DNA from: Sialis fuliginosa
Taxonomy: Eukaryota > Arthropoda > Insecta > Megaloptera > Sialidae
Direction of reading: 5' to 3'
NCBI GenBank assembly: GCA_961205875.1
Contig: OY540812.1
Coordinates: 1,922,001 to 1,986,000 of the forward strand
DNA: 64,000 bases
The notes beneath the pieces were generated by a model, which was given only the letters and a program-made list of their open reading frames with translations, did no database searches and was not told the DNA's origin. The position numbers and the translations under genes are program-made. Positions 11,901-55,322 of the stretch are shown here, piece after piece (the first letter of the stretch is position 1; each line of letters starts with the position of its first letter).

Positions 11901-14900
11901 TTTCTTTTATATCTTTTGTGTTGTAGTACTTATCATTAGCAAGTGTCCATCACTGCGTGCACATTCCAGGTTTTACCTTTTCTATTACTGGAGAAAAAAC
12001 ATGAACAAAATAAAAGGCTATTATTTAAAAAAATAAACCATATTTGCGGACTTTGGTAATTAAATTGATTAAATAAAAAGTTACTTGTTTTATTAGTAAC
12101 ATGAGTTCATGATAATTACAAAAAACAAGTCCATTAATCCAAAAAAACCGAAAACTTGCTCTTATAGCGGCCATAACGGGTGCCTTTACCTTATGTGCTC
12201 GCGGCTTCGCTTGCTTAAGTATAAGAGTTAGATATATGGTATCGCGGAGTTTATTTTAGATCTTTTTATTCTACATATGTAGTTCTATACTATACATTAT
12301 ATTGTTCAATTAACGGTTTAGGCAGCGTATTGCAAAAGAACTAACTTTTTTCCGACTTGATTTACTATTATCGTCACTGCTTATGCCTTATGTTACCTAA
12401 TGTAACACAATATATACTAAAATTTGACCAAAAGACATATCTATGAATTAAAAAAAAACACGTAAGTAAATCGGATAAGTAGTTCTCGAGTAATAAGAAC
12501 ACTAACGGACAGATAGACGGACAGACGTTGCGTTTTATAATATGTAAGGATAGTATTTTTTTTATGCGTGCTGAAAATCCATACTAATATTATAATATTA
12601 TATATAATTTATATGTTTTTTGTTTTGCATTTGTCTTCGCCAAAAAAAGTATTAACAATCGCGCGAAGAAATGTCACACATTAATTTTTTTATCTAGTAA
12701 AATTTTAGGGATACAAAGTATATAGCCTATGTCCTTCCTCAGGATGTAAGCTATCTCCTTGCCAAATTTCATAAAGATCGGTTCAGCGGTTTAGCTGAGA
12801 AAAGGTAACAAATAGACAGACAGGCACACTTTTGCATTTATAATATTATTATAGATGTGAAAATAATTCTGTCTGTATGTTACCTTTTTACGTCTAAACG
12901 GCTGCACCGATCTTGATGAAATTTGGCAGGAAGACAGCTTGAGTTTTGAGGAAGGACATATGCCAAAAATTATTTAGATAAAAAAAAACGAATTCCAGAC
13001 GGGTAGTTGTTAGCAGGCACACTTTTGCATTTATAATATTATTATAGATGTGAAAATAATTCTGTCTGTATGTTACCTTTTCACGTCTAAACGGCTGCAC
13101 CGATCTTGATGAAATTTGGCATGGAGACAGCTTGCATTTTGAGGAAGGACATATGCTAAAAATTATTTAGATAAAAAAAAACGAATTCCAGACGGGTAGT
13201 TGTTAGCAGGCACACTTTTGCATTTATAATATTATTATAGATGTGAAAATAATTCTGTCTGTATGTTACCTTTTCACGTCTAAACGGCTGCACCGATCTT
13301 GATGAAATTTGGCATGGAGATAGCTTGCATTTTGAGGAAGGACATATGCGAAAAATTGTTTAGATAAAAAAAAACGAATTCCATAATTTAGTTAATTACC
13401 CTAGTCAGCCATCATACCTAATATACTACACTCTACAATATTAATCCGATTTTGACCGGTTGTATCAGTGACCCCAAACCAAGGGCCGGCGGGTCGACAT
13501 TGGCAATGTGAGCTATATATAGAGCGATATATCCAATATTCACATATATACTAAAAATACATTAATTTTACTAACAATTACGATATGGTGATTGCTTCAT
13601 GACCTGACCTTATATTAATAGCTGTGTTTGTTGTCCTCGAATAGTATAACATTTGATCCGAAGATTTTTATTGGCGTCTGCTAGCTTACACCTGTATTTT
13701 TGTATTTTATTCTTCTGGACCCACTGTGCGACGTGGTAAAAAAAACATCTGCCAAGTAAATGCATAGTGCTTCCTCGTGCTAAATTCACCAAAGGTAGTT
13801 AATTATTGAACAAATTAAATAAAAACCGATGCTTAGAATTGGTTAAGTATTTAATTTTTATATAATTTTACTAAAAAAATATTAGTTAGGATTTCTTTTT
13901 AAGACGCACCTGATTATTTTTTCGTATATTTTTAATAAGATCGGTTCAGCGGTTTAGCCGTGAAAACGTAACAAACATACAGAGAGACAGACAGACACAC
14001 TTTCGCATGTATAATATTAGTATGGATTTCAAACGAATTATTATTTACATTTATTTCTTATGTTACGTACATAATCAGGGTGTCCACTTTCTGGAAAGTC
14101 AGGGAAGCCTAAAGTGGTCAGAGAAAGTCAGGGAATTTCTTTAAAATTCTGAAAAGTCAGGGAATTTATTGTATCTAGGAAGTCAGTAAAAAAGTGTATA
14201 AATTTAAGTTGACGAGTAAAAAAGTTCTTCATATTTTTTTGCACATTCTGGGGCCCCTTGATCACTTCTTGCCCCCGAGCTTCTAGTGGTCAGGGAAAAG
14301 TCAGGGAATTTTATTTTCAAAAAACAGTGGACACCCTGATAATTTAAAATATTTATATTATTAAAATAATGTTGTTTAAAAAGTCTTATTTTAATAAAAA
14401 GTTTATTTTTATTCAAATACACTTGTAAAAAAATCAATTCTAAAGGCGATTGGTTACGTGAATTATAAAATACAAAATAATAACCCAGTTACTTTGATGT
14501 GCCAGATTTTTCTTTACGTTTGGAAAGGATGAAACTCATTCATAATATCCAAGAATTGAAAATAGAACAGTGCTTCTCAACATTTTTTTCTAGTTACATA
14601 CGTAATTTTCTTGTTTTGTCATATTTTATTTTTTGATTTATTTCGGTGTCTTAATTATAGCCCCTACATCCTGTCGCGACCCCCTGGTCATGATTTTAGA
14701 TGGGCCTCTTGCTGATAATAATAAATAAATAAATAAAAATCCTCTGGGCCCCCAGACTAGAGCCCTCAACATTTCTGAATGATAATCTTTGAAAGATATT
14801 TTATAATTTTCTTGTTTTGTCATATTTTCCTTTTTTGTTTATTTCGGTGTCTTAATTATACCCCCTACATTCTATCGCGGCCCCCGGGTCAGGATTTTAA

Positions 14901-17900
14901 ATGGGCCCCTTACCGATAAGAAATCTAAGACATTTTTTCTGACGACGATGAAAAAAAATCCCCTGGGTCCCCAGAATAGGGCCCTGTCAGCCCCCCCTTT
15001 GTGGGGCCTTGATCTTAATATATGAAAGAAAATAATTAAATTTTAACAAAATAATTTTTTTGTATTTTTCAATAAATTTTTACTCGAAAACTATCAACTT
15101 GTGAAAAAAAAAACAGTTTATTTTGATCTAATAAAAATTGGAGAATTTGGTTTGTTGATATTTATTTTCTGAACAAAAAAATACTCAAAATCTAAAATAC
15201 TTTTCAAGTTCATGGTTTTCAAATAAAAATTCTTAGAAATCGAAAAAACTCAAATAATTTATTAATTGTGCTGAAAATTGAAGTAGTACAAAAAATGTAT
15301 CATAAAAATATAAATTTCCATTAAAAAATACATTTTTTCTAACCTTAAAACTTTTGTTCGAAACATTTTTATCATAAACTTTATTTAATATTTAACGACC
15401 TTTTTTGTTTTTCTATCCGGGATAGGGGGTCCCTGGAAAATAATTGTTCAAAAGGGGGTCCCTAGACCATACAAGTTTAAGAACAGCTGCACTAGAGTGC
15501 TTGTTAAGCTCACCTAACATTTTTACCATCAATGGTTTGAAATCGTGTCTATACGAGTATGAAATTTTAATATTTGCAATTCATTTTTCAAATATATCAT
15601 TGATGCTAATAATTCTTATTCAAAGGAAAGGCAAAAATATTGCGTGGGCTGTCGCGTTCTATATTTTCTGTTTATCAATAATTAATTTATAATATATAGA
15701 CATCTCTTTTCTATTTGTTCTTTTACGTGTATTCATATTTCGTATAAACTATATGTTATACAATAATTGAAATGTTATTACGAAACAATACACTCTTTTC
15801 AGTGGCGTAGTAAGAAAAATTTTCGTTGGGGGGGGGGGGGGGTGAAGCTTGGGGCACCCAAAATATGCAAAATTATTATTACAATTTCTAATCAAATGAT
15901 TATAATCACAAAAAAGGTCATTCAATTCAAAATTGTAATAATAATTTCATATATTTTAAGAACATAAAATATTTCGGGGGGGGGGGGGGGCTTTGACCCC
16001 CCCCCCCCCCCGTTCCTACGCCACTGATTCTGTTAAATGTTAGAAGAAATAATCGTCTCTTGTGTTTGCTTGAGTAATTTTCTTATATATGTATTAAGTT
16101 CAATCACAGCGGATGTTATTAAATATTGTACCTACACAGTGGCACTCTATTGTGCACCCCCTCCCTCCCCCCCTCCCCACGAAATCAATTTAATTTATAG
16201 AGGTTATGAATATGAATATATGGTATAAAATTATACAAAATTTTTGAGCTCGATTTTTTGGTGGAAATATTTTTTGCCATCATGTCTGTTTGTCTGTAAT
16301 TCAAAAATGGCAGAACGTGAAATGGTATTTTATATTTAGGATCAATTTACATCCTGGAAAAAAACCGTTTTTTTTAAATTAAAGTTTTATTCATTAAAAA
16401 AAATAAAAAAATGAAAAAAATGTTATTTTCTATAATTCATTTTTTCATATCATTTATCAGTTAGCCAGAAATATTTGTTTTATATAGTAGATATATTTAT
16501 ATACACGTACACTTTACTACGTATAAGAAAGTCCTGTGGAACCCATGGTAGCTTTTTTATAAACTATACTCTTCGACTATATTTTATTTTTTTTAATTTT
16601 TTTTTTAAATATCAAGAATTTAGCACCTTTTTCGAAATTTCATAAATTAGTGTAGTTTTTTGGCCACATGTCAATTTTTATTAAAATCTATTTTTTCGTT
16701 TTCGGGTATACTTTATACCGCTGTGCGTCGAAGGGTTAAAAAAAAACTCTTACAGGCCCACGTATATCTTACAATAATTAATCCAGCCCTCCTTCAGTCT
16801 TATCTATCTACCTTTGACCTTTACAACCTTAAAATTAACCAATAATAATTAACTGAAATATCTTCTGATAAGTGAGCGTGAAAATTATAATCTGAATTAA
16901 TTAATTTTCCATGTATCATTTGGAACCCTAACCACAGAATTAATCGCATGTGACGTCATTGTACACTTAGAATTTAATAAGTCCTTACAACCCTGAGATT
17001 TACTGATAAAAAACATCTGCCTAGTAAATGCACAGTGCTTCCTCGTGCTGAATTCATCGAAAGTAGTTAATTATTGCACAATTTAAATAAAAACCGATAG
17101 TGTTGAGATAAATTGCCTGGAATTGGTTAACCATTAAATTTTTATACAATTTTACTAAAAAATATTAGTTCGAAATTTTTTTACTAATTATTTTTTTTAT
17201 GCAAACGTCAAAATGACATTTAAAACGTCAAAATAACATTTAATATGTCAAAATAAATATCAGTTTAAAAAAAAACACGATTTTTACAAGTAAATCTTTG
17301 TAAGGGAATATTTTACAACTAACTTTGTAGACCTATATTATAGAAAATTTAATGCTCTACAAAAAAGGTTCTATAAAATTTTCACGTAACATGTGTCGTT
17401 CTTGAGATATCTTTAAAAAATAAATATTTTGAGATGTCACCCCTCCCTCTTACACACGATTTTGATGATTTTGAAATGGGACCGTCCTCAAACGAGACCC
17501 AACCATCCTACCAAGTTTAATTAATATCGGTTCAGGAATTCATGAGATATGCGTGTGACAAAGATTCAAGGAACAGACAGACAGACAGACACGGAACAAA
17601 AAGAGATCTGAAACGGAAAGATTAATTTAAAATTTTAAAATCGGAGAACATTTTTTTTTGTCTCATTCTAAAACGATCACAAAACTTCGATATTGCGAGA
17701 AAACAAAATATAAAAAATAAATAAAAATTTTATTGTAATATTTAAATATATAATGTATAATTTAAAAATATGAAATTCCTGCTGCCGTAAAATTAACTTT
17801 TTATTGCTTAATAAACGATATGTTCCGAGGCGCAGGGAGGGGGGCTTAGAACCTCCCCCCCCCCTCCGACTTTGTCAATATTCATTATTATGTTTTACAC

Positions 17901-20900
17901 ATAAAAATGAAAATTATATGTAATTACAAAAAAAACTGAAATCCCCTTCCCGATTTTTTATTATATTGAATTTTAAAAATCTACAATTGGATACTTAATA
18001 AAAAAATGTCGTTCGGTCAAGACGAAATTTATTTTTTAGTGTCGAAAATTTAACAAAAATATATAAAATTAAAAATGCCATAAATAATTACCTTTGACGT
18101 TTTTTTTTAATCACAAAAAATTTTATAAACACTGTTTCACTTAGATTTTTTTGTTACCCACACGATGGTGTCTTTCCGGGCATCCACACCTGTTGCACGC
18201 GCGCACGTGACTAGCTCCGCTCCGGAGGACTTCCGGTTTGTGTATGTGTGTGTGTGAGAGTAGGTGGGAGGAGGGGGGGGGGTAAATGTGCCATACCCCA
18301 TACCGGATGCTGTAGATGGAACTTAAAGTATGAAGTACGTACGGTAAAGTGGGGTAAATGGTAAATGCAAGCATACGAGTTTTATAAAGGATGAGTAAAA
18401 AATATCTGGCAAGTAAATGCACAGTGCTTCCTCGTGCTAAATTCACCAAAACCGATAGTGTTCAGATAAATTGCTTGGTATTGGTTAACCATTTAATTTT
18501 TATACAAATTTTACTAAAAAATCTTAGTTCGTAATTTTTCTTAAAACGCACCTGAATATTTTTTCATGTATTTTTAATTTTTTGACAATTTCAATCTAAA
18601 TCTAAATTTATGCAAATGTCAAAATGATATTTAATATGGCCAAGCAAATATCAATTTAGAAAAACAAAACACGAATTTTTAAAATAAATTGAGATAAATC
18701 TTTGTAAGGGAATATTTTACAACAAACGTTGTAGACCCATATTATAGGAAATTTAATGCTCTACAAAAAATATTCAATTAAATTTTCACGTAACATGTGT
18801 CGTTCTTGAGATATATTGATAAAATAAATATTTTGGGATGTCACCCCAAAATAAGGAATTTTGCTCATATTTTTTATAAAATATTCATTATTAAAAAAAA
18901 AATTTTTTAGAGAAATTATTTTCTATGTAATGATAATCTTAAAAAAATTCAGTCAAGTTGCTATGGCATCCAACTCTATTTTTTTAAATGACTACATATA
19001 TTTTTTATTGATTCTATGAATAGTTCTTAATTTTTTGTATACAACCCTGTAAAATTTAAATTTTTTGAGAAAAATTAACTTTTAAAATCTCAATACACAT
19101 TAACTACAACTTAACCAAGAAAGCCTTGAAAAATGGGACAGAGAAAAAAAATAACCCTTATATGCAAATATTAAAGTAATATTTTCTTGTTTTCAAAATG
19201 TATCTCATATTTGATACTATTTATATAAATGTTATATGTCATATTTACAATATAATACTTACAATACTTGTGGAATAGAATACACCTACAATAAAATGCC
19301 ATATTAAATGAATAAAAATATCATACGTACATAGGGTAGAGTGGGGTAGTTCGAACATCTAAGAGAGAAATCAAATAAATTAAAACCTGAGTCAGAAACA
19401 GTACAAATTCGACATTGCAAAATCATAAAAAGCTGTCAAAATCACAGAACGTATTGCCAACTTAAGAATAGTAACCAAATGCTTTTTTTATGATTGTGCA
19501 ATGTCGAATTTGTACTTATTTGATTGTATGTGTTGTTAAAATATCAAAAAAATACGAAAACAAAGACATTTTTTTGTAATTGATATTCTATTATACATTT
19601 ATAGCATTTGAATACGTCCCTCAAGTGACGTCAATTCTCTCACGGCCGCGGATTGGTCAAGGAGTTGATGAGAATACCTTGTCTTTATATATCTTTGGTT
19701 ATTTTCTTTAAAGTTTAGTTTTCAACAGTCTTTTTTTTACAACGTAAAAACAATAGTTTACAAGATATTTGGAAAAACACGATTTTCGCAACCTTTGACC
19801 TGAAATAACTTTTTTTGCGCACATGATTTCGCAATTGACTTTTTACACGTTATTTCTTATGCCCAAATAAAGATAATCCCTGTGAGAAAACTTGGATTTT
19901 TTTCGCAGAAAAATCCTTATTTATTATATAGAATTACTATATTATCTGAAAAGTGATAACTGTTTTTATAAGTGATGTAGAACAAAATATAATATAAATT
20001 AAAAACTGGGGACCTTTTTTTTTTTTTTTAGTTGCACTACTCATTTTTAGTCTGTCTATTATTTTTTTTAATATTCTATATTAAACTATGTCCGGTATTA
20101 TAAAGGACCTAACAAAATTCAAATGGGGTATTAATTCTGTACTAGTATCTATGGAATTTAGAGCAGTGACACTTCAACTAATTGTAACACAGTTGGCATC
20201 TTTGACCGTACAAAATAATTTTCATAACATCACCACTGTTTTAATACCGTTTGTATTTACCTACAACGCGTGCGCGAAACTTGTCAAAGTCATCAACAAA
20301 CTCCAAAAGAACTGTCATATAAGTTTGATATCTCAGTTGAAAGTGCTTGCTAGCTAACAAATTTGCTAGGTCCCTTATGATACCGGACATAAAAGAAACT
20401 AAAGAATCTACCGCCCCTCTCAGCCTTCCGCCCTATTCTTCTTCTAACATACTGAATTCGCGATTACCCCACTCTCCCCTACGTACATCTCAGATCTTTG
20501 ATGTTATATGTCTGTTACAAGGTAGTTTCGATGTATGTATGTTGTACGTATACACAGTAATTTTATTTTTCTTCTACCTACATTTAATTGGGGGGATTAC
20601 CTATATAGGTTATTTATGTTTGTATTTTATTGAAAAATATATTTCCAATTTTACAAGCAGTTTGATTAGTCCAATTTATTTTGTTTCAATGATAATTCAT
20701 TATCTTTCTTTTTTCTTTACGTCTTTTGGTTCCTTGCTATATCGAAGATACGAGAAGCTTTGTGATCGTTTTTAAAATGATAAAAAAAAATTGTTATGTT
20801 TTTTCTCCAATAATGGATAAAGTAAAACCAGTAAAGACACTTGCTAATGATAAGTACTACGACACAAAAGATATAAAAGAAAGAATCGTCAAATTTGAAA

Positions 20901-21517
20901 CAATGTAAAGCAGTTGCTATGATAATATAATAATTAATAAATAAATTATACTTATAATTAGTTTAAATGTCCACCATTTTGACACCTAGTAGCCGATTGT
21001 CATCAAATCACGCTGTAAGACAGTTAAATGTATATAGAATAATATTTAGAAATGGTAGTATGTAATCAAATATCAACAAATATTTATAATTCAGTACATT
21101 TAATTTAAAAATAACCATTACTGGGGTCATATCCAAGACCTTATATAAATATAAAATTATCATAAAAAAAGGTAGTAAAAAAATATTAGAAGGCGCAAAA
21201 ATTCGGATTGGGGGGAGCGGAAAAAAAGTCAATATATTTTTATATTTATAGGGGGGGGGGGGAAGGTGGCAAATTTACGGCAGAAACTTACGTTACGCCA
21301 CTGCTTTTGCTCCATACTTCTGCTCTGTGGGCTGTACTCCAAAATCCACAAAATTTTTAATTTTGATATTGTATCTTTTATAGGTCGATACGTTGGCAGT
21401 CGTCCGATAAAATTACGGAAGAGCTGTTGGAAATCTAGGAATCTCGACATCGTCAGAAAGAAAGATAAAGAAAAGGCGGCGCTAATAAGCATGCTAACAT
21501 CCGGCTCAAATAGATAA
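2965..21517 (+). CDS. RBM42: RNA-binding motif protein 42, three coding exons
   Basis: Single-RRM RNA-binding protein; the family is implicated in splicing and hnRNP K-associated RNA control. Coding exons 2965-3011, 3080-3825 and 21384-21517 join in phase to 927 nt (308 residues). Residues 1-60 carry the conserved MASDDRLRQMEDEMNRFEAE start and a glutamine-containing segment. A polyproline stretch follows (about 3216-3240), then the conserved basic linker with KKLKPEKK, and an acidic WDDDDFRIF lead-in to the RRM. RNP2 is RIFAGDL (residues 203-209) and RNP1 is KGFGFVSF (243-250). The last exon supplies the family C-terminal signature GRYVGSRPIKLRKS followed by a Lys/Arg-rich tail, and ends at TAA 21515-21517. 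A poly(A) signal AATAAA lies at 21648. The odd point is a 17.6-kb last intron. The distant last exon is secure because it completes the RRM in frame and matches the family tail. Confidence 0.95.
4125..4490. mobile_element. Palindromic MITE-like element
   Basis: Two long inverted arms, about 4125-4290 and 4345-4490, pair over most of their length. Each outer end carries CCGCCATCTTGGAA, and the inner parts share GCAATATTATAGA and ACATTTTTTT blocks. Small size, no coding capacity and long inverted repeats fit a foldback MITE. I did not find a clear target duplication. Confidence 0.7.
4859..4972 (-). CDS. Small protein-like ORF, 37 codons, antisense in RBM42 intron
   Basis: Reads ATG at 4972-4970 to TAA at 4861-4859. 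The product starts MTVDPIVLVSIF and ends CQLAGRRFEESKKK. It stands out from its AT-rich surroundings by balanced base composition and a protein-like residue mix. AG immediately precedes the ATG (TTTAG|ATG), so it could equally be a terminal coding exon entered through a 3' splice site. It lies 260 bp downstream, on the same strand, of the neuropeptide-like exon at 5231-5623. It could not be joined in phase to the GTAAGT at that exon's end: one base short, giving a stop. The Gly-Arg-Arg could be an amidation/cleavage site if this is a prohormone piece. Not recognised; function unknown. Confidence 0.4.
   Translation of the reverse strand: MTVDPIVLVSIFATEGVATFDDICQLAGRRFEESKKK
5231..5623 (-). 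CDS. Putative secreted neuropeptide precursor nested in RBM42 intron
   Basis: A 130-residue frame on the strand opposite RBM42. Residues 1-21 form a likely signal peptide with a hydrophobic core (AVITLLFSI). A dibasic KK (40-41) precedes DIFVSRGWAAGGMPFG. A second dibasic RK (109-110) precedes AYSVLPQLFVSYGWGPI (111-127), which is followed by Gly-Lys-Lys, a classical amidation and cleavage signal. Both segments share the pattern FVS-x-GW, as in related peptides from one precursor. Directly upstream of the ATG is TTTTAATTACAG|A, a good 3' splice site, so a 5' UTR exon is expected further right. The stop (TAA 5233-5231) overlaps GTAAGT, a perfect donor, so the exon may instead splice onward after residue 129. 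I do not recognise the family by name; prohormone identity is inferred from architecture. Confidence 0.68.
   Translation of the reverse strand: MDSKYIYAVITLLFSIHQITCNPLQQHQSINNQIHRPESKKDIFVSRGWAAGGMPFGVLYLKPKYSSKSNAKYYMNAKQQQRMTEEPFQALPVVQRLQTMYRGNNEPIRKAYSVLPQLFVSYGWGPIGKK
5925..6215. repeat. Imperfect inverted repeat
   Basis: TTCAATAATTTTTTACTCGA near 5930 recurs in reverse complement near 6185-6205, with further weaker pairing between (GTACTTAGATCTAGGC versus CCTAAATCTAAGCAC). No ORF. Probably a decayed MITE; its boundaries are uncertain. Confidence 0.45.
6400..7345. repeat. Tandem array, 168/196-bp units, five copies
   Basis: The block TTGTTGGACGAAACTTTGGT starts at 6481, 6649, 6845, 7040 and 7208, so spacings are 168, 196, 195 and 168 bp. 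Short units lack the segment reading AAGTCAAATATCAGC that the long ones carry. Each unit also contains ACACAAAAT.CAGTTATTTT and GGCAATTTT. No coding potential. The alternation of short and long units suggests amplification of more than one monomer type. Confidence 0.93.
8704..9061. mobile_element. mariner-like MITE with CAGTCGCCTGCA ends
   Basis: Perfect 12-bp terminal inverted repeats, CAGTCGCCTGCA at 8704 and TGCAGGCGACTG ending at 9061, are each flanked by TA, the Tc1/mariner target duplication. The 358-bp interior is AT-rich and non-coding. A likely non-autonomous deletion derivative. Confidence 0.85.
9831..11095. repeat. Satellite array, 164-bp unit, eight copies, with a higher-order period
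   Basis: CTAAAAACCTGTTTTACCGA starts near 9831, 9995, 10159, 10324, 10488, 10652, 10817 and 10971. Spacing is 164-165 bp except for one 154-bp unit. Diagnostic variants recur every third unit: the CATAGC-type unit (9995, 10488), the CTTAGC-type unit with AAAACTAAAACGTG and GGCATGC (10159, 10652), and the CGTAGC-type unit (10324, 10817). This gives a higher-order period of 493 bp. A single inverted partial copy lies at 51680-51755. Confidence 0.96.
11665..11960 (+). repeat. Dispersed repeat, copy 1
   Basis: This segment (containing CAGTAATGG, CTGTCTTACAGCGTGATTTG, CAAAATGGTGGACATTTAAA and TACTTATCATTAGCAAGTG) is found in reverse complement at 20835-21130, with only scattered differences. It lies inside the larger inverted-repeat element. 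Confidence 0.85.
12715..12855 (+). mobile_element. RTE-like LINE 3' tail fragment
   Basis: Carries CTATCTCCTTGCCAAATTTC, GATCGGTTCAGCGGTTTAGC, then a GACAGACAGGCACAC tract and TTTGCATTTATAATATTA. Near-identical text occurs at 13935-14027 and 51785-51935. The form is familiar from 3' ends of insect RTE-type retroposons. No reverse-transcriptase frame is present, so the class is tentative. Confidence 0.55.
12821..13385. repeat. Tandem array, 193-bp unit, three copies
   Basis: CAGGCACACTTTTGCATTTA begins at 12821, 13014 and 13207. Each unit then has GATGTGAAAATAATTCTGTC, CACGTCTAAACGGCTGCACC and GAGGAAGGACATATGC. The unit contains both the tail motif (TTGCATTTATAATATTA) and the inverted head (CGGCTGCACCGATCTTGATG) of the neighbouring RTE-like fragment, so it looks derived from that element. 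Confidence 0.92.
13744..13930 (+). repeat. CTGCCAAG family repeat, truncated copy
   Basis: The 5' part of a dispersed ~720-bp family that starts CATCTGCCAAGTAAATGCA, then CTTCCTCGTGCTAAATTCAC. This copy keeps about 185 bp and then abuts an RTE-like tail (13935-14027). Confidence 0.8.
13935..14030 (+). mobile_element. RTE-like LINE 3' tail fragment, second copy
   Basis: Contains AAGATCGGTTCAGCGGTTTA, a GACAGACAGACACAC tract and CGCATGTATAATATTAGTAT, as in the copies near 12720 and 51800. Class tentative. Confidence 0.5.
14076..14338. mobile_element. 263-bp MITE with CAGGGTGTCCACT ends
   Basis: Terminal inverted repeats CAGGGTGTCCACT (14076) and AGTGGACACCCTG (ending 14338) are flanked by a perfect ATAAT direct repeat (14071-14075 and 14339-14343). 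The interior repeats GTCAGGGAA several times in both halves. Non-coding. Superfamily unclear: the ends are hAT-like but the duplication is only 5 bp. Confidence 0.82.
14571..15490. mobile_element. hAT-like element or remnant with C/G-rich subterminal tracts
   Basis: The left end CAGTGCTTCTCAACATTTTT is a hAT-type terminus. The right side GGGGGTCCCTAGACC...TTTAAGAACAGCTGCA resembles its inverse. Internally a ~190-bp segment (TTTCGGTGTCTTAATTATA, CCCCCTACAT, GACCCCC) is duplicated at 14640-14760 and 14840-14960. No transposase frame. Confidence 0.55.
15800..16026. mobile_element. CAGTGGCGTAG MITE with G/C homopolymer ends
   Basis: Terminal inverted repeats CAGTGGCGTAG (15800) and CTACGCCACTG-type (ending 16026) are each followed by a run of about 14 G (or C). 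The flanks ACTCTTTT and ATTCTGTT agree at 6 of 8 positions, as for a degenerate 8-bp hAT duplication. Confidence 0.78.
17012..17720 (+). repeat. CTGCCAAG family repeat, near full length
   Basis: Starts ACATCTGCCTAGTAAATGCA and contains the family blocks CTTTGTAAGGGAATATTTTA, GTGTCGTTCTTGAGATAT, GATTTTGAAATGGGACCGTC and a CAGACAGACAGACAC tract. Ends TTCGATATTGCGAG. No ORF, no terminal inverted repeats. Confidence 0.88.
18396..18850 (+). repeat. CTGCCAAG family repeat, 3'-truncated
   Basis: Begins ATCTGGCAAGTAAATGCACA and loses the family sequence after GGGATGTCACCCC. Just upstream, at 18150-18290, is a short GC-richer segment with a TGTGTGTG tract and a G run, otherwise unrecognised. Confidence 0.85.
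19332..20481. mobile_element. Element with TAGGG-AGAGTGGGGTA ends, carrying a nested MITE
   Basis: TAGGGTAGAGTGGGGTA at 19332 and its inverse TACCCCACTCTCCCCTA ending at 20481 frame 1150 bp. A second inverted-repeat element (20087-20392) sits inside. No transposase is seen. A related end, TAGGGTAGAGCGGGGTAA, occurs at about 62588. Confidence 0.7.
20087..20392. mobile_element. MITE with TATGTCCGGTAT ends
   Basis: TATGTCCGGTATTATAAAGG at 20087 and the inverse (CCCTTATGATACCGGACATA) ending 20392. Same family as 60509-60756. The interior shares AACTGTCATAT.AGTTTGAT and AAAGTGCTTG with that copy. Confidence 0.85.
20835..21130 (-). repeat. Dispersed repeat, copy 2 (inverse of 11665-11960)
   Basis: Reverse complement of the segment at 11665-11960 (CACTTGCTAATGATAAGTAC ... 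TTACTGGGGTC). About 9 kb separates the two inverted copies inside one intron, which allows long-range pairing of the pre-mRNA. Confidence 0.85.
21185..21303. mobile_element. Remnant of a GTGGCGTA-ended element
   Basis: Contains GGATTGGGGGGAGCGG and a run of about 12 G, and ends ACGTTACGCCACTG, the inverse of the CAGTGGCGTA terminus seen at 15800. Lies 80 bp upstream of the last RBM42 exon. The left end was not identified. Confidence 0.5.
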
Positions 21518-28074: not shown

Positions 28075-28200
28075 GCGTACGTGGAAATAATCAACCAATG
28101 AACGAATTTCGCGGGATTTGGTGTCGTTTGATGAACATATTTTCGCGGCATTTATTTATTAATCATTCTACATATTATACGTTGTATTAACAGTAAAAAC
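28075..28200 (+). promoter_or_regulatory. E2F-like sites and CCAAT box upstream of the RnrL paralogue
   Basis: TTTCGCGGG at 28107-28115 and TTTCGCGG at 28141-28148 match the E2F consensus core. A CCAAT box is at 28095-28099. All lie within 110 bp of the first ATG. Ribonucleotide reductase genes are established E2F targets; binding here is inferred. Confidence 0.6.
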
Positions 28201-30650
28201 ATGGTACATGAACCTGTAGGAAGAATGTACGTCCAGAAAAGAAGTATGCTAATGTTTGTTATAATAATTCATAATAAAATAACCTTTTTATGTTTCCTTC
28301 AGATGGGCGAACAGAATCTGTTTATTTTGATAAAATTACTTCAAGAATCGAAAAGCTTTGCTATGGGCTCGATATGGAATGGGTTGTGCCGGTAAGAAAA
28401 TCATTATTTACTCAAATAAGCTTATACTAATTTTTCATTGTCGTTTTCAGACGCAAATTACTCTACGAGTTATCCAGAATGTGTACAGAGGTATTACAAC
28501 AGTTGAATTGGATAACATGGCAGCGGAGGTCGCCGTGTCGTTAGCAATAGCACATCCGGATTACGCAATTTTAGCTGCGCGTATTGCCGTTTCAAATCTT
28601 CACAAGGAAACCAAAAAAGTGTTCAGCGGTAAGTAATGATTGAATGCAGCAACGATCGAACTTTAAAAATAATCTTGTTTCAGAGGTGATGTTCGATTTA
28701 TACAATAATATCGATGAAACTACCGGAGAAAATTGTCCAATGATTTCCAAGAGACATTACGACATAATTACTAAACATGCTGATAGATTTAACTCAGCGA
28801 TAGTCCACGAACGTGATTTCCAGTATGATTACTTGGCGTTCAAAACATTAGAAAGCTCATACTTGCTTAGAATAAAAAATAAAGTCGTTGAACGACCCCA
28901 ACAGATGCTGATGCGAGTTTCATTAGGAATTCACGAAGATGACATTGAATCAGCGATAGAAACGTACAACTTACTTTCTGAACGATACTATACACATTCC
29001 AGTACTACGCTTCTAAATGCTGCCACTCCGTCATCGCAGCTTTCTTCATCTTTCATACTCACCATGAAAGATGATTGTTTGAAAGCTATCTACGATACAG
29101 TCAAACAATGCGCTTTGATTTCAAAATCAGTCGGAGGAATCGGATTAAATATTCACTGCATTCGTGCGAAGGGGTCGTACATAGCAGGGACTAAAGGGAT
29201 ATCCAGCGGGATAGTCCCGATGCTTTGCGTGTTCAACAACACCGCACTTCACGTAGAACAAGGCAGGACTTCTCGAAGCGCTGCGATAACCGTTTATTTA
29301 GAACCGTGGCACTCAGACGTTTTTGATTTCCTCAATTTGAAGAGAAACACGGGTACAGAAGAAGGCCGCGCTAGAGATTTGTTTTACGGTATGTGGATCC
29401 CGGATTTGTTTATGAAGCGTGTCGAAAACGACGAGGAATGGTCGTTAATGTGCCCCCATTACTGTCCGGGTCTGGTCGACGCATGGGGTGAAGATTTCGA
29501 GAAGTTGTACGTCAGTTATGAAAAGGAAGGAAAGTTCAGAAAGAAAGTACAAGCCCGTCAACTTTGGACTGCTATTATTCAGTCTCAAATAGATACAGGC
29601 TGTCCGTATATGCTGTATAAAGATGCGTGTAATCGTAAAAGTAATCAGAAAAATATCGGTATAATTAAAGGTGCCAGTTTGTCTGCTGGGATGATAGCCT
29701 ACTCGTCTTCTGACGAAGCTGCATCATTAAATACAGCTTCAATTGCAGTTAATATGTTCGTTAAGTCAGATAAAACGTACGACTTTCAACAACTTAAAAA
29801 TATTACGAAAACCGTTACCAAAAATTTGAATAGGGTGATTGACGTTACTAATTATCCAATTGCAGAGGCGGAGAGTTCTAATTTGAAACACAGACCGATA
29901 GGTATCGGAGTTCAAGGGCTAGCTGATGCGTTTATATTGATGCGAATGCCGTACGATAGCGACGAAGCGAGATTATTAAACAAACAGATCTTCGAAACGA
30001 TGTATTACGGAGCTTTAGAAGCCAGTTGCGAACTTGCAGAGAAGCACGGGTCTTATAAAACTTACGAGGGTAGTCCGATAAGCAAGGGGATACTTCAGTT
30101 TGATATGTGGGAAACAAAACCAACTGATTTGTGGAATTGGGACGAATTGAAAGAGAGAATATCAAAGTACGGAGTAAGGAATTCTTTACTCTTAGCGATA
30201 AACCCAACGGCTGCGATGGCTCAAATTTTAGGGAACACAGAATCGTTTGAACCTTGCATGTCAAATGTTTATACCAAAAAAATGTCGTTTGGAGAATTCC
30301 AAATTGTAAATCATCATTTACTGAAAGATCTGATTGAACTGGGTGTATGGAATGACGAGATAAAAGAAAAACTTCTGGCGAATAACGGTTCAGTTCAAGA
30401 TATCGAACAAGTTCCAGATAATATAAAGAAAATTTATAAAACTGTTTGGGAAATATCAAATAAATCGGTTATAGAAATGGTTGTAGATCGGGGAGCTTAT
30501 ATCGATCACAGTCAGTCGTTGAGCATTAATTGCGATTCTCCTACATATAAGTTACTATCGACAATTCATTTTTATACGTGGAAAGCTGGCCTTAAAACTG
30601 GAATGTATATGTTACGTAGTAAACCAACGGTTTCAGTTCAAAGTAAATGA
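28201..30650 (+). CDS. RnrL: Ribonucleotide reductase large-subunit paralogue lacking catalytic residues (predicted pseudoenzyme)
   Basis: Exons 28201-28243, 28303-28391, 28451-28628 and 28684-30650 join in phase to 2277 nt (758 residues). The family MxVxKRxGR start aligns with the second ATG (28225), so translation may begin there. The N-terminal ATP cone (about residues 9-100) is well conserved ([38 protein letters not shown]). The alignment runs without gaps to the human enzyme through residue 452 at a constant offset of 8. Against human numbering: Cys218 is Ser (29049), Asn427 is Ser (29676), Cys429 is Ser (29682), Glu431 is Gly (29688) and Cys444 is Leu (29727). Also, the phosphate-binding Ser-Thr of PTAST is Ala-Met, the second Tyr of GMYYLR is Met, and the C-terminal Cys-x-x-Cys tail is missing. 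Catalysis as a reductase is therefore not expected. The intact frame and conserved remainder argue against a pseudogene. Poly(A) signals are at 30801 and 30826. Confidence 0.94.
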
Positions 30651-31393
30651 TTAATTATTAAAATAGATTTGTACCTTTATCAATAATTATTTATAAGAAC
30701 CATACATTATATTATTATCTATTATTATACCTGTATTTTGTACTTTGAAACTAAAGATGTTTTTCTTTATACATATATTTTAAAATTTATTAGGAATTGT
30801 AATAAAATTACCAAATGTTTTGCATAATAAAAGTGTTTTGATATAGAATATATATTTACTTTTTAAATAGAGAAAATATGGGACTGGTACCTTGGGTTAG
30901 GGGGGAAGGGTAAAAGATATGAACAATTAAGCTGTAAATACATAATATTCTTTATAACTTATCTAAAAAAATTTATTACACACATCGTATTACAAAAATA
31001 ACGTATATATGTATAAATTTTATTAAAATACGGGACATTTAAGCGTTCCGAATAGTGGGACAAAACAAAATGTTAAAAAACGGTACATATTCCGTAAATC
31101 GGGATTTTTGGTTATCATATTTTGAATTTTATAGTAAATTTCGTTTCTATATATTTTTGTCACTTTTCCCCTAACTATCTTACCTAGTTTCATTTTTATT
31201 TGTGATCATTGCAAATTGAAAAAAATATATGTATGTCCACGATTTTCATGATGTATTGAACATGCGAAGTTTAAATAATTATATTAAAAGTGATTTATAC
31301 AATAGCAATTTTATTGCCAGTATGACACATTAATACGTTAATTTCTCATGTTTTCTAATATTAATATTTTTATAGTAAAATAAATTATTTAAA
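30651..31393. other. Intergenic RnrL paralogue - DCAF8
   Basis: 3' UTR of the upstream gene with two AATAAA signals, then AT-rich sequence with the DCAF8 promoter and 5' UTR. No repeat element recognised. Confidence 0.75.
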
Positions 31394-34152
<2,759 letters not shown>

Positions 34153-39830: not shown

Positions 39831-40639
39831 CTAATAAATTCCAATTGTTTGAATTAATCCAGCATAAATCTGTAACGTTATAACTCCAATACACGAAGTA
39901 ACGAAAGCTTTAATTAACAATCCGAACCACGGTCCTGCCATAATCGTGGCGATAATCACATCAAGGATTAATGACTTGTATGCAGATACAAATATCAACG
40001 CTATTACAATACGTCTAAATGATTTTTGAAGATCGTGACGCGACCATAACCATATCAAAGTAACGGTCGTAATGTGCTGCATCAATAGTATGTTCGAGTC
40101 GAGGCATTTCTGTATGTAACGCCAGTCGAATTCAGCGCCACGTGCTCCTACCCAAAGCAAGAGTGCTCTGGATAGAATTACTTCAGCTGTTGCCCATCCG
40201 ATTCCAGCTGTCAAAACTTTACTGTGTCCTTTTCCAGGGATTCTGTTTAGTACGACGTGCATTCCGATTAAATCTGCTAGATCTACTGTTGCTTTTAAAA
40301 ATTCCTGAAAGAAAAAAACATCATTTAGTTCTTGTTATTACCATTTAATTAATACAGTAATTACCGAAATACTTAATGTTCCTTCAACGACATCTGCATC
40401 AGGGAAAAATGTTGCAAGTACTAACATTTTTGCTAATTGGGTAAACATGTATATACATCCTGCTTGAATACATTTCCAAAATGCTCCGTATTCAGATCTG
40501 GAATTAATATATTTTAAATTAGTATTTAAAAAAAATTAACCTACAAATGATTAAGATCTTACAATCCAGAATACTTATATGTGAGATAATATGGTACGTA
40601 TATTAACGCCACACAGTTTCCAAAATGATACAAAGTCAT
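39831..40639 (-). CDS. TMEM147: Transmembrane protein 147 homologue, three coding exons
   Basis: ER multipass membrane protein; the family associates with the translocon (Nicalin-NOMO and ribosome-bound complexes). Minus-strand exons 40639-40563, 40497-40365 and 40304-39831 join in phase to 684 nt (227 residues; human protein 224). It starts [20 protein letters not shown], the family N-terminus, followed by [15 protein letters not shown]. The central [14 protein letters not shown] and [12 protein letters not shown] blocks are hallmarks. About seven hydrophobic segments are visible, the last being [20 protein letters not shown] poly(A) signal TTTATT (AATAAA on the minus strand) is at 39814-39819, close to the stop. 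Confidence 0.95.
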
Positions 40640-43380
40640 TTTGATTGATATTAAATTAAATTAAATCAATATTATCTGATTAGGTGTTTTGTATGCATGC
40701 ACTTTTGAATTACAATTTTTACGCTTATATTGCACGGATTGCACTTGTAGCACTTGACACTTATCACAGAGTTGTATCAAGACGAACAAGAACGACAATC
40801 ATAAAGTTATATTACCGGATTATATTGTATTATTAAGGTGTGTAGTTTTTTCTAATTGTTAATATTTATTTTCGGATCAATTTTTGTCTGAGAAGAAAAC
40901 CTAATATTTTTGAAAACGATCTTACAACTGAGAACAAATGTTAACTCTAGTCAATTTTTGAAATTTTTTTAAAATTTGCTTTAGAAAAAAAATGTTATGG
41001 TATAAAAGTTGTAGAAAATATATAATTTATGATCTATTCGTTTTTTTGTGTCTTCATCATTTAACATTTTTTTAAATATAATAAAATAATATTTGAAAGA
41101 ACCGTGGTATCCAAAAAAAAAAAAATATAGTTAAAACTTAAAACTTATTTTTGTTCAATTCATGATATAGAAAAACATGAATATGACATAAATTATAGAA
41201 AATAACGTTCTCTATAACGTTTATTATAAACTTTTTTTTTGCATCATTTGAAAAAAAGATTATTTCCTTTAAAAATTTTTAAAAAATATTTTTTTACAAA
41301 AAATAAAGATAATAACTTGTATCTAAAACATTTTTTCTAATATAATATAATATAATTAAAAAATAATTAGAAAATTTTAAAAATTAAAGAAAATCGATTA
41401 TATCCTAAAAAAAAATTGGTGAAAAAATGAACAGAACATAAATTATAGATAAGAGAATTTATATTATATATTATATTTATATTTATATTATATTATGATA
41501 AGAGAATTTTATACAAGAACCTTATGTTTAAAATTCCATGTCTGTAAGTCTTGCCGTTTTGGCTGTAGAGCGTTCACAAACATACAGACAGACACACACA
41601 CACACAGACGTCATTGAAATAATGGTACTACGTGATTCAAGGACCTTCAAAACGCGTAATTCCGTCAAAATCTAAATTTTTATATAATTTTATTAAAAAA
41701 TATTAATTCTAAATTTTCCTTAATACGTGCCTGATTATTATATTTTAAACATAGTCACAAATAATAAGTATGACTGTCCAGGGTTATCAATACTTTCATA
41801 TACTACATATATTTTATATAAGCGACCGTATAAGAAAGTAAAAAACAGTATTTTTATCAGTGAAAATATGTCTAACATAAGATACACATATTTTTTTTTA
41901 ATTTGCCTATTTTTAATGGAATTAATTTCGATTTAATATTTAAATTAAGATGTACATCTATTTGTGACTGTAAATATTAATATTTTAATAATAATTTAAT
42001 ATTAAATTGACTCATTTTTTGTTAATTACGTTTACATTACATATTTGCAATAATTTATTACCCAGCGCCTCCACCATAATTTTTAACGATTGATTAATAT
42101 ATTATTTTATTTTTTAAATTTTGTTAGTAAGTGCATGCTAATGTTATTATTTTGATGTAAAAGATTTCTATCTAAAACATTTCATAATCTGAAACATGTT
42201 TTTTGTATATTTATGACTGAATTTGTAAAATTAATGGTTTTGGAAGAAATTTAAAATTTACAAGAAATGTGTATTTATTTTATACTTAATTATATTTGCA
42301 TGCATCTAAAATAACATTGATTTCCCTATGTCTGAAGTACGTAAAAAAACATCTGCTAAGTAAATGCACAGTGCCTCCTCGTGCTAAATTCACCAAAGAT
42401 AATTAATTATTGAACAATTTAAATAAAAACCGATGCTCAGATAAATTGTTTAAAATTGGTTAACCATTTAATTTTTATACAATTTTACTAAAAAATATTA
42501 GTTCGAAATTTTTCTTAGAACGCACCTGATTATTTTTTCGTATATTTTTAATTTTTTGACAATTTTAATCTAAATCTAAATTTATGCAAACGTTAAAATA
42601 ACATTTAAAACGTCAAAATGACAGTTAATAAAAAAACAAAAGACGATTTTTAAAAATAAATTGAGATAAATCTTTGTAAGGGAATATTTTACAACAAACG
42701 TTGTAGACCCATATTATAGGAAATTTAATGCTCTACAAAAAATATTCTATAAAATTTTCATGTAAAATGTGTCGTTCTTGATATATCTTGAAAAAATAAA
42801 TATTTTGGGATGTCACCCCTCCCCCTTACACACGATTTTAATGATTTTAAAATGGGACCGTCCTCAAGCCAGACCCAATCATCCGACCAAGTTTAAATAA
42901 TATCGGTTCAGTGGTTCATGAGTTATGCGTGTGACAAGGATTCAGGGAACAGACAGACAGACAGACACTGAACGAAAAGTGTTTGTCTTGACGTGAAATG
43001 GAAAGATCAATTTAAAATTTTGAAATCGGAGAACATTTTTTTTGTCTCAATCTAAAACGATCACAAAGCTTCTCGTATCTTCTATATTGCGACTGAGCAA
43101 TAAAATTTAAAATCTTGCAATGTGAAAATTCAATTAAGAAAATGTATATCACGTAAACATCTTTCTTTGTCTTACTGTGGTATTCAACAATCTCATAAAA
43201 AAATTAACTTGCACGGTTCACTGATTTTTTTAGTTATCATGAAGCATAAATTGCAAAGAAAAAGACAATGCGAGTCAGTTTAAAACTTGAAAATAATAAT
43301 CATAGAGACTTATATCCCCTCCTTTCACCCTCGACGGTTGCATCTTATAGGTCGTAGACCGAGCAGAGGGGGTCGGCATG
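40640..43380. other. Upstream of TMEM147, AT-rich, no gene seen
   Basis: The TMEM147 promoter and 5' UTR lie at the left edge. Beyond it is AT-rich sequence with poly-A tracts, an ACACACACAC run near 41596 and one dispersed repeat (42349-43095). No supported ORF. Confidence 0.7.
42349..43095 (+). repeat. CTGCCAAG family repeat, near full length
   Basis: Starts ACATCTGCTAAGTAAATGCA, carries all family blocks including the CAGACAGACAGACAC tract, and ends CTTCTCGTATCTTC...TATTGCGA. Confidence 0.9.
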
Positions 43381-43460
43381 GTGGGGATACCGACCGACTG
43401 GTGGGGATGTTGCGCATGCGCAGTCAGTTATGGCGGGAGTTCACGCCCTTTATAAGTATC
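43380..43460. promoter_or_regulatory. GC-rich patch with NRF1-type palindrome
   Basis: GCGCATGCGC at 43412-43421 is a perfect NRF1 (Ewg in flies) core. It is followed by AGTTATGGCGG (YY1-like) and sits in a GC-rich 150-bp island within AT-rich DNA. It resembles a promoter, but I see no adjacent coding exon. Confidence 0.4.
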
Positions 43461-44328
43461 GATCGAAGATTCTCGCAAATGACAAAGATGTACTTAGGGA
43501 TTGAAATGAGATGGGGACTTTATTCCGATTTCTATTGTTCGAGGAGTGAGAATTTTGGTTATTGTTTTATGTTAGTTGGAGTATTTGAATGAACTTTGTT
43601 AATGTCGTTAATTTATTGTTATTTTCTAACATTTTCGTTGCGATTTTCTTTTACAATAGCCTATTTCGACAACGATGGGTAACTATGTAACGTATTAGGG
43701 TCTACCTAAACTCAGAAATAGATGATTTTTTTTTATATTTTACCAAATTTTTATTATATTCAATTACATAATTACTAGAGATTGGAAAAATAGTTGTTAT
43801 TTTCAATGAAATAGTTACTAGTTCAATTTTTTTTCGGAAAATAGTTTTTTTTACGATTTAATAATAATTAGTGCAAATGAAGCAGTAAAAAGTGTCGCAA
43901 ATAGTTGGAAAGGTAGTTGCATATAGTTGATTTCAAATTGTGTTCAATCAAACCAGTTTTTTGAAAACGGTGGAGATATGTAATAAAAATTACAATAAAT
44001 GCATTTTTACGCAATAGTTGAAAAACTATTTTTCCAATCTCTATGAATTACATACAATTTCATGATTACATATAAAAGACCTAAAGGGGGTATAAATGCC
44101 TGTACTAAAATATAAATTAATAATAAAAAGAAAAATAAATAAATCAATTTTGCACTAGGTATACCTAGAAAAAAATAAAATTTGTAATTAATTTTACTTG
44201 TAAATGGATTCTTTATGAAAGTAATTTATGTTTTTAAATTTAAATAAATATCACCAAATAGTTCATTAAAAGAAAAGAAAAAAAAAAAATAAATAAATAA
44301 AAATGATAAAAAAAAACAAAAAACAAAA

Positions 44329-44480
44329 AAATCTGCCAAGTAAATGTACAGTGCTTCCTCTTGCTAAATTCACTAAAGGTAGTTAATTATAGAACAATTT
44401 AAATAAAAACCGATTAAGTGTTCAGATAAATTGCCTGGCATTGGTATGAAGCATTTAATTTTTATACAATTAAAAAAACA
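44329..44480 (+). repeat. CTGCCAAG family repeat, truncated copy
   Basis: Carries ATCTGCCAAGTAAATGTACA and the next 130 bp of the family, then breaks off into poly-A/T sequence. Confidence 0.78.
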
Positions 44481-44879
44481 AAACACGATTTTTAATAAAT
44501 TATGTTTTTTTTTTTTTACAAGAATATATAAAAAGAGGGGGTAGATTAAAAAAAAACAGTAATGCATAAGTATTGTTTTAGATGATTTTTTCACATTTGA
44601 AGTTTTGATATTGAGTCTGTCGGTCTGTAACACAAAAATTTTCGCCTTGGTAGAAAACCTTTTACTTTTGAAAACAATCATACAACCGGTATTTTTATTA
44701 ATAATTAATTTTATTATACTATAAAGCCTTGGCAAATAAGACATCGCTGTTACGTCGTCGCATCCAACTTGACTATTCAAATGAGTTACACTCCTGTTTA
44801 AAAAAAGGACAAGTATATTCCAAACCTGTTTCTATCTCTTTCTTTTGACACGACTCTGTTTTCGAGTCAGATGCGTGGT

Positions 44880-45080
44880 TATCCTAGATAAAATTATAAT
44901 AATATTTTTTGGCAGATATAAATTTAAAAACAAAATACTAATGACTATTTTATTAAATTTTATGGCGCCATTTCAAAATGCACCAATCACACATCGTTAA
45001 ATTTGACCAAAGGTTACTACAACACTTCTAATTGCCCCCATGTTAAATTTCCTATGTCTTAATCAACTTAGAATACACTG
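44880..45080. mobile_element. Half copy of a mariner-type MITE
   Basis: Matches the reverse complement of 63305-63510 (TCACACATCGTTAAATTTGA, GGTTACTACAACACTTCTAA) and ends at GAATACACTG followed by TA. The left side is truncated at CCTAGATAAAATT. Confidence 0.78.
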
Positions 45081-45373
45081 TATGTATATTTCATATGCAT
45101 AAAAACAAACTAGTTTGTCTTTATTTAAGAAAAGGTAATCGCAAGCTTTCGATTCACAGAATCATCGTCAGGCTATTAATAAAGATTTAAATTTGAGAAC
45201 GATGTCGTTATCTCAATAATATTCATGTGACTACGGAAATGTTTGAAAAAATATATATTATTATTTCATATCACTGATCTGGTATTATTTAACTGGGTAG
45301 TGGATACCTATGGAATTACTATTAAACCGGATGGCTAAATTTCATACTTTTTCTAACAGTATCATTTCCATTT

Positions 45374-45383
45374 GCGCATGCGC
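45374..45383. promoter_or_regulatory. NRF1-type palindrome
   Basis: GCGCATGCGC, the second perfect occurrence within 2 kb. Isolated in AT-rich sequence; function unproven. Confidence 0.3.
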
Positions 45384-45779
45384 GAGACGCAACACTGAAC
45401 TCAATTTTGATATAATATAGAGGTATGTGACGTGCTTCTATAGTTTCTTTATTCAATTGTTAATCAGATTTGACAGTTAGTATGCATCTATGGTTGTTTA
45501 TTTAGTTATTATTTGATAATTAAAATAAATTACAGGTTTCGCGTGTTAAATAAGTGTATTGTAGTTGATATACAATTGAACTTGTATGTATTTATTTATA
45601 TATTTACCAAATCAATTTGATAAATTTGAATTTCGAACATCCGTTGATGCATGCGCATAATCAGTTTCGGTTGTTAGGAAATATTCAATTTCAGCCATCA
45701 TGTCTGACTTATCATCAGTCCAGCCATGTCAATGTTTCATATACATATAGTATAAGAAAGTAAAAAACATACACCTATC

Positions 45780-46060
45780 GAATATCTTGTCTGCGAGCAG
45801 TACCGCACCCACTGGACCCGCGCGGCCGGCGTCCAGACCGTCTAAACACCGCCGGTACATTGCTAATTGGTATTTGTACAAAGCGGCCCCCCAATTAGAC
45901 GGGACTGGTCCGCCGCTGCCGCCGTCGGGTTGTTATAATAACCAAACAGAAACACGCGCGCGCGGGAGACAGGCGTTACCGTGGCAACGCCGCGCGACGG
46001 ACAGAGAGAGAGCGCCCACCCCGCCGCGTCCTAAGCTATTTTTGATAAGACGATCAATTA
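45780..46060. promoter_or_regulatory. GC-rich non-repetitive island with RFX X-box
   Basis: About 280 bp of strongly GC-rich, CpG-dense sequence in otherwise AT-rich DNA. It contains CGTTACCGTGGCAACG (X-box GTTACC-GT-GGCAAC at 45975-45988), homeodomain-type cores (TGCTAATTGG, CCAATTAG) and a near-palindrome GGTTGTTATAATAACC. An open frame here (45787-46074) has Pro/Arg/Ala-rich composition explained by GC content alone. Best read as a candidate enhancer or promoter; a 5' exon of a distant gene cannot be excluded. Confidence 0.45.
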
Positions 46061-46147
46061 TGATTCAGCTTTAAGTATTGCCTTTCAGGTTTATTACGCG
46101 TTTTGCTTCTTATTATCGTTTCGTTTTTATCAGATGAATTAATTTAC

Positions 46148-47110
46148 AGTAAGACCTCGATTATTCCAGGAACCTCCGATAACACGGAAGAAATACAAAA
46201 ATCTAAATTTTTAATCATTTTTACTTCCATGTTCCGAAGGAAATGGAAGTATTGTAATACCGTCGGAAAATCGTGTCCGAGATAATGAATTATGAATGTA
46301 CTAACTTCAAAACTTGAAGGTGGCTGTGCGTGTGTCTGGATGTAGAATTTTCTTTCGTTCGCGATAACTACTGTAATATCGGTATGGAGAACCATACATG
46401 ACTTCCATGTTCTTTCTATCTTTTTAAATAATTTTTAAATATGAATTTTTTTTAAATATTTTATTTATATAACCTACTACTATGAATATAAACGTAATAC
46501 ATAAAAAAACATATATACTTACGACGGTCACAGCTGTTATTGCCATTTTTATATAAATATAATTTAATTTCCTAATGTCCAAAACATAATACACATTCGT
46601 AGAACAACTAATTTGACAATCTGAATTTAGTTGCATTTGTTTCCAAGGGAACATGAATTAATGACGTATTAATTAGTATTTAAAATTCAAATTTTGAAGC
46701 TATTTTTCATCCCTTCAATGACTGTTTAGGCACGTACAAATAATAAATGCCCCTTGAATTCAATTGAACTACAAATGTACCAAGTCTTATCAAAATTAGT
46801 GAGATAATCTCGCAACGTTCACTTTTTAGACGAAAAAAGTTACAAAATTTCGAATATTTCCAAAACCCTTAATCCGATTAGCACCAAAATCAATAGGTCT
46901 GGAGTACTCACTGAGACAAACATTTTCCCCAAAAACAATTCAGATCGGTACATTTTTACAATAGTTATCGTGAACGAAAGAAAATTCTACAATCAACTTT
47001 TCTTTAAGTTTTGAAGTTAGTACAATCAGAATTTACTCTTATCTCGGACACGATTTTTCGACGGTATTACAATACTTCCATTTCCTTCAGAACATGGAAG
47101 TAAAACAATA
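46148..47110. mobile_element. Tigger-like composite element with internal inverted repeat
   Basis: Left end CAGTAAGACCTCGATTATTC (46148) is of pogo/Tigger type. GGAAATGGAAGTATTGTAAT and TCGGAAAATCGTGTCCGAGA (46240-46285) reappear inverted at 47045-47100. Between them, 46690-47000 is the reverse complement of 61740-62060. No intact right terminus or ORF. Confidence 0.6.
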
Positions 47111-47712: not shown

Positions 47713-47732
47713 GGGGGGGGGGGGGGGGGGGC
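47713..47732. repeat. Poly-G run
   Basis: About 19-20 consecutive G on the plus strand. Length may vary and the tract can form a quadruplex; assembly error is possible. Confidence 0.9.
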
Positions 47733-47774
47733 GTCCTGAAGTCCTATAAGTCTGATTTTTTTAAAATCGGTGTC

Positions 47775-50100: not shown

Positions 50101-50111
50101 CATAACTTTTA

Positions 50112-50252: not shown

Positions 50253-50299
50253 TCATATCGATATTTTAGTTATGATTTTGAAAATTTTAAAAGTTGAAT

Positions 50300-51615: not shown

Positions 51616-51674
51616 TGTCAGTTTCGTCTAAGAGCTTAATTAGAATTTAAATAATGAAATATATGTAATCCGCG

Positions 51675-51760: not shown

Positions 51761-51784
51761 ACCCAACTTTTTATCTAATAAATT

Positions 51785-55320: not shown

Positions 55321-55322
55321 TA

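Follow-up and report, generated by a model that had tools for sequence, protein, structure and literature searches.

Chromosome 4 of Sialis fuliginosa carries a four-exon paralogue of the ribonucleotide reductase (RNR) large subunit that lacks the residues for thiyl-radical chemistry. The gene, here called dead R1, lies on the forward strand at 28201-30650 of the 64,000-nucleotide stretch that we analysed (the window; C4:1922001-1986000 in an assembly of 392,097,322 bases and 20 contigs). Our preferred, still tentative reading is that it represents a second RnrL gene, duplicated at the DNA level and now kept by selection as a pseudoenzyme, which may join canonical RnrL and regulate RNR. The role of dead R1 is probably to control the working enzyme, not to catalyse.

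The locus and its canonical counterpart

The gene model comprises the following exons:

28201..28243, + strand: exon 1, start codon and N-terminus (spliced reading frame, GT donor)
28303..28391, + strand: exon 2, first part of the ATP cone with F15, D16 and I18 retained (spliced frame, codon check)
28451..28628, + strand: exon 3, remaining ATP cone with D57 and K88 retained (spliced frame)
28684..30650, + strand: exon 4, which encodes the helical domain and the barrel through the stop codon (Pfam PF00317, PF02867)

The spliced frame has GT/AG at all intron borders and contains neither a stop nor a frameshift. The first-pass annotation had taken 28684-30650 as the gene; this interval is exon 4 only, and the 758 open codons counted there do exist but are spread over four exons. 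Pfam orders the domains as ATP cone, all-alpha domain and barrel, with no added domain and no long N-terminal extension. The ORF containing exon 3 matches the ATP cone family PF03477 (E 1e-6), Ribonuc_red_lgC and lgN score 629.8 bits (cut-off 23.9) and 72.4 bits (cut-off 28), and TIGR02506 scores 620.6 bits (cut-off 341.05), which places the protein in the class I RNR large-subunit family. Human R1 aligns without a gap over 654 residues (query 10-663 to human 92-745), beyond the stretch for which an absence of indels had been claimed. The claim does not extend to the insect's own canonical copy, against which the alignment has two gaps ahead of the missing tail, one of a single residue inside the protein and the other at the N-terminus. 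An AlphaFold2 model of exon 4 (pLDDT 74, pTM 0.83) matches human R1 (6lkm_A, Foldseek) with a TM score of 0.94 at 2.2 A and thus supports the earlier view that the R1 fold is conserved, although the input alignment held 33 R1 proteins, so that the fold is partly imposed and the match speaks for compatibility rather than proof. Low model confidence in the catalytic loops was considered as a sign of disorder and dropped, because an active control, Chrysoperla R1 modelled from the same sequences, shows it as well. In domain order, ungapped alignment and modelled fold dead R1 resembles eukaryotic RnrL/RRM1; it differs in lacking the catalytic cysteines, Asn427, Glu431, Tyr738, the phosphate-loop Ser-Thr and the Cys-x-x-Cys tail. 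The gene is spliced, has the host R1 exon layout and sits in a 35.8 Mb insect chromosome with TTAGG arrays on both ends, which speaks against a viral origin.

A search of the same genome for a canonical RnrL with intact cysteines had been suggested by the first-pass annotation. Such a gene is indeed found on chromosome 4, 12 Mb from dead R1 (C4:14025529; region C4:14024029-14028600), and it contains all five catalytic residues as well as the Cys-x-x-Cys tail. Both copies have four exons with identical phases, and this common layout indicates a duplication at the DNA level, not via mRNA. When the window is compared with 20 kb around the canonical copy, only the R1 exons match one-to-one. A segmental duplication still including flanking genes was rejected, as the non-R1 matches hit several places and are repeat-like. 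When the genome was searched with either the barrel family or the dead protein as query, no third nuclear R1 copy emerged among the best candidates, which were the ones scored.

In an R1 tree, both copies fall within Holometabola near Neuroptera and Coleoptera, the dead copy on a long branch (tip 1.63 vs 0.5 for the canonical copy). Clade tests gave p 0.49 for dead plus canonical R1, p 0.40 for these two plus Chrysoperla, p 0.40 for canonical R1 plus Chrysoperla, and p 0.10 for Holometabola without the dead copy; they are uninformative on the age of the duplication. Rare shared residues were tried as a tie between the two copies and rejected, since dead R1 shares 4 with canonical RnrL, 5 with Carabus and 4 with Armadillidium. 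No megalopteran R1 occurs among the named hits of our homologue searches (the best 120 of 8000 scored in each), and a search with region 338-380 for further proteins sharing the dead motif yielded 23 candidates, none of which scored.

Loss of the catalytic machinery

The following positions, numbered as in human R1, are altered in exon 4:

29049..29051, + strand: Cys218 position changed to Ser (TCT; codon check)
29250..29282, + strand: loop 2 (human 285-295) rewritten, with 6 of 10 invariant residues changed (alignment; coordinates by offset)
29676..29690, + strand: finger loop Asn427-Leu-Cys429-Thr-Glu431 changed to Ser-Leu-Ser-Ala-Gly (alignment, codon check)
29727..29729, + strand: Cys444 position changed to Leu (TTA, requiring two base changes; codon check)
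30213..30218, + strand: phosphate loop Ser606-Thr607 changed to Ala-Met (GCG ATG; codon check)
30609..30611, + strand: radical-path Tyr738 changed to Met, all three bases unlike the canonical copy (codon check)

The thiyl cysteine Cys429 and the redox pair Cys218/Cys444 are thus gone (now Ser and Ser/Leu), and with Asn427 and Glu431 replaced by Ser and Gly the protein lacks residues required of the enzyme. Each codon behind the Ser, Ser, Ser, Gly and Leu first noted at human 218, 427, 429, 431 and 444 was confirmed, those in the finger loop being AGT (427, 29676-29678), TCT (429, 29682-29684) and GGG (431, 29688-29690). The changes of the PTAST Ser-Thr to Ala-Met and of GMYYLR to GMYMLR likewise hold codon by codon; human 737-738, which we take to be the radical-path tyrosine pair of R1, reads TAT ATG (Tyr-Met) at 30606-30611. 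The wider statement that all catalytic residues are replaced is accurate for the five and overstated beyond them, as Tyr737, Ser202, Ser217, Thr604, Ala605, Gln288 and Arg293 are retained. The reported loss of the Cys-x-x-Cys tail is real: the frame stops five codons past the last residue aligned to human R1, and translation of 30621-31100 in three frames shows no remnant of the motif. Alignment and codons together support the earlier claim that dead R1 is without the residues for thiyl-radical chemistry.

We assessed conservation in an alignment of 180 of the 183 proteins from the homologue searches (three were dropped for length). C218, N427, C429, E431 and C444 are present in every one of the 180 relatives with a letter there (one gap, at C218). 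Among 342 invariant positions, defined as conserved at >=98% in the alignment, dead R1 is changed at 61 and the canonical copy at 12. Catalytic loops were taken as residues 198-206, 217, 218, 285-295, 426-446, 603-608 and 737-738, a set based on RNR anatomy. The boundaries of loop 2 follow PMC9221315. In dead R1, 23 of 42 invariant loop positions are changed vs 38 of 300 elsewhere (Fisher P 4.5e-9, a value that is not fully independent, as the loop set was picked from RNR anatomy after an earlier list of changes had been seen); the corresponding counts in the canonical copy are 1/42 and 11/300. As judged from the alignment, residue loss in dead R1 is aimed at the active site. A second cluster of changes (R627K, R628K, V629M, L630S and S631F) lies in the beta-hairpin 624-637, which adjoins the cone (PMC5819950).

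Retained parts, promoter and possible role

The ATP cone, described as intact by the first-pass annotation, is well preserved, with 5 of 47 invariant cone residues changed. It retains F15, D16, I18, T40, I44, D57 (GAT, 28511-28513) and K88, the last of which is presumably a dATP contact. F15, D16, T40 and I44 are contacts of the alpha6 ring and D57 is a dATP residue (PMC5819950); D57 and D16 have been tied to dATP inhibition and ring formation (PMC5819950; PMC3267527). Dead R1 differs from human R1 at the ring contacts R12, Q23, A37, M41 and L47, several of which vary among insects anyway. The idea that the cone of dead R1 is specially preserved was weakened by a comparison of the two copies, which match the consensus at 68 and 69 of 95 positions and are equally close to it. 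The canonical cone is itself unusual, with changes at the invariant residues S20F, L25Q, T52S and K88R, all of which the dead copy keeps. The dimer-helix stretch KQCALISKS is unchanged in dead R1. Its interface residues are largely retained, from which we infer that a hetero-oligomer with canonical RnrL may form.

Two motifs lie upstream of the gene:

28107..28114, + strand: E2F-like site TTTCGCGG, 94 bp upstream of the dead R1 start codon (motif search)
28141..28148, + strand: second E2F-like site TTTCGCGG, 60 bp upstream of the dead R1 start codon (motif search)

We take TTTSSCGS to be the E2F-like core. Canonical RnrL has a comparable site at -91, and the two R2 genes each have one, TTTGCCGCCAAA, at -112; the R2 start codons used for these distances were chosen by eye, and the R2 sites count once because the two genes are recent copies. 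A single site occurs in 1.8% and a pair in 0.17% of 150-bp stretches of the window, while 2.5% of stretches in 40 kb elsewhere hold one. The whole window contains 9 motifs vs 9.0 expected, which is not above chance, and it is the position of the motif rather than its count that speaks. The motif was examined only after the promoter had been seen. At the level of sequence, a promoter motif common to dead R1, canonical R1 and the R2 genes is shown.

The two R2 genes (C1:42315634-42316598 and C11:20216742-20217698) are 92.5% identical over 1.86 kb including introns. Their unspliced exon pieces look intact, and some family matches carry a stop. They end in FSLDVDF (C11) and FSLDVNF (C1), which we take to be the R1-docking tail.

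Regulation of the true enzyme fits this anatomy best among the roles that had been proposed for the protein. Dead R1 would be made together with canonical RnrL in S phase, join it via its dimer helices and, in the alpha6 ring, by contact between the cones, bind ATP/dATP at its own activity site, and lower or tune RNR output. In yeast, the R1 tail probably acts on the adjacent chain. Within a mixed dimer, dead R1 would contribute neither an active site nor a tail with which to re-reduce the other chain, and in a mixed ring its cone could still serve as a dATP sensor. Negative or tuning regulation thus appears likeliest, followed by an Rnr4-like helper. The altered loop 2 and the beta-hairpin 624-637 beside the cone could cause such oligomers to differ or to fail. 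A more specific and more doubtful version is a division of labour, in which the canonical copy would perform the chemistry and the dead copy, with its dATP-sensing cone, would seed or cap alpha6 rings. RNR sets the cellular dNTP supply, and if our reading is true, the animal would gain an extra, evolvable control on this supply via a host-encoded alpha pseudosubunit. Such a host gene, if under selection, would demonstrate that erasing an enzyme has given an animal a regulatory alpha subunit, and dead R1 could serve as a natural separation-of-function mutant for probing alpha-ring and ATP-cone control of the active subunit.

The same anatomy is expected if dead R1 were an obligatory positive partner that stabilises or assembles active RNR, in the way that yeast Rnr4 serves Rnr2, and the four cone changes of the canonical copy, at residues which the dead copy keeps, would fit this reading. 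We consider this unlikely, yet the most serious alternative: canonical RnrL looks self-sufficient with its five catalytic residues and tail, the share of its changes that falls in the cone (4/12, where the cone holds 47/342 invariant sites) is only suggestive, and the whole cones are equally close to consensus. Yeast offers a partial precedent. Rnr4 is an RNR-subunit paralogue with a structural role, and Rnr3 is an additional large-subunit gene that accompanies the principal one (PMC5673236). Rnr4, however, is a small-subunit paralogue, acting for Rnr2, whereas dead R1 belongs to the large subunit, and Rnr3 makes dNTPs (PMC5673236), for which dead R1 lacks the needed residues.

Beta-herpesviruses are known to have inactive R1 homologues (PMC5469499; PMC11772975); in these, among them HCMV UL45, most catalytic residues are missing and the protein has been kept for a different role (PMC5469499). 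Signalling through RIP1 and NF-kappaB is a target of both UL45 and MCMV M45 (PMC5469499), and dead R1 might by analogy act as a scaffold in signalling or immunity with no link to dNTP supply; a signalling scaffold had been suggested by the first-pass annotation. This seems improbable to us. Dead R1 yields no positive evidence for it and has neither an added domain nor a long N-terminal extension, and it retains the ATP cone, the dimer helices and a promoter motif common to RNR genes. Unlike UL45/M45, it is a host gene with introns and its own ATP cone, beside an active host R1. Among the literature matches listed, a small part of all those for the broader searches, every inactive R1 protein comes from a beta-herpesvirus, and none of these matches describes an inactive R1 paralogue in a cellular genome.

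Selection and the remaining alternatives

Dead and canonical R1 are identical at 484 of 757 aligned residues (64%), and their differences by codon position amount to 28, 17 and 58%. We obtained dN 0.23, with synonymous change saturated, and a pairwise omega of about 0.02 or less, a value that averages both copies rather than describing the dead branch alone; the cost in log units rises from 2.5 at 0.02 to 36 at 0.1 and 341 at 1.0. As omega averages both branches, drift after a late death was simulated separately by letting the canonical frame drift, with 400 draws per level. Drift to 12.7 or 17.8% of residues changed, the shares changed at invariant positions beyond the loops and at all invariant positions, is expected to bring 7.9 and 10.7 stops, where dead R1 has none. 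At 10, 12.7 and 17.8% changed, 0/400 draws each were free of stops. Replacements needing at least two base changes make up 8 of 61 in dead R1 (13%) vs 4% under drift to 17.8%; drift reaching 11% of such replacements would bring about 23 stops (60 draws each). These two-step replacements point to an old loss of the active site; that the frame nevertheless stayed intact speaks for a gene retained in a different role. Codon comparisons indicate purifying selection over most of the history of dead R1, which does not look like a drifting pseudogene, and its retention is well supported. The part of the original proposal that had the gene kept for another role is borne out to this extent by omega, stop count and multi-step changes.

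All but one of the eight multi-step replacements fall within the catalytic loops or adjacent to them, and the active-site loops are changed far above background, which could reflect adaptation to a new activity, with a remodelled pocket binding or turning over another ligand. We give this a small probability, as phosphate, ribose and loop 2 contacts are all altered and nothing recognisable has been gained in their place. Smaller still is the chance of a decaying pseudogene that was alive until recently. It would account for the faster evolution of the dead copy evident from its tip length, and a short late neutral phase is compatible with zero stops (drift to 5% changed gives an expected 3.1 stops, with 3.5% of draws stop-free). 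Against it stand the open frame, the three introns with consensus borders, the simulated draws at 10% and above, the concentration of changes on the active site, the two-step replacements that indicate an old loss, and a GC3 of 0.385 vs 0.25 in the introns. A sequencing or assembly error can practically be dismissed, as 61 of 342 invariant residues differ within an open frame, the scaffold has TTAGG arrays at both ends, and the published assembly GCA_961205875.1 is reported with a QV of 63.7 (PMC11549539).

Several other features of the genome and the window were recorded. The small contigs C15-C19 (15.6-25.6 kb) look bacterial, with long frames and 40-47% GC in the sampled C15, C16, C18 and C19, and C17 holds a bacterial-type RNR. 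The mitochondrial contig has 15,590 bases and the gene order W-C-Y, which speaks against most Neuroptera. Repeats with 71-91% identity are common to the window (9620-13773, 17223-21139 and scattered over 41675-60154) and the flanks of canonical RnrL. Downstream of dead R1 on the same strand, 31394-33737 contains an acidic Ser-rich frame followed by a WD40-like frame (E 1.5e-5, just under the cut-off); both may belong to one gene, which we presume could be DCAF5-like. The window further contains an ORF with an RNA recognition motif at 3072-3830 and an ORF with a DUF2053 membrane domain at 39831-40334.
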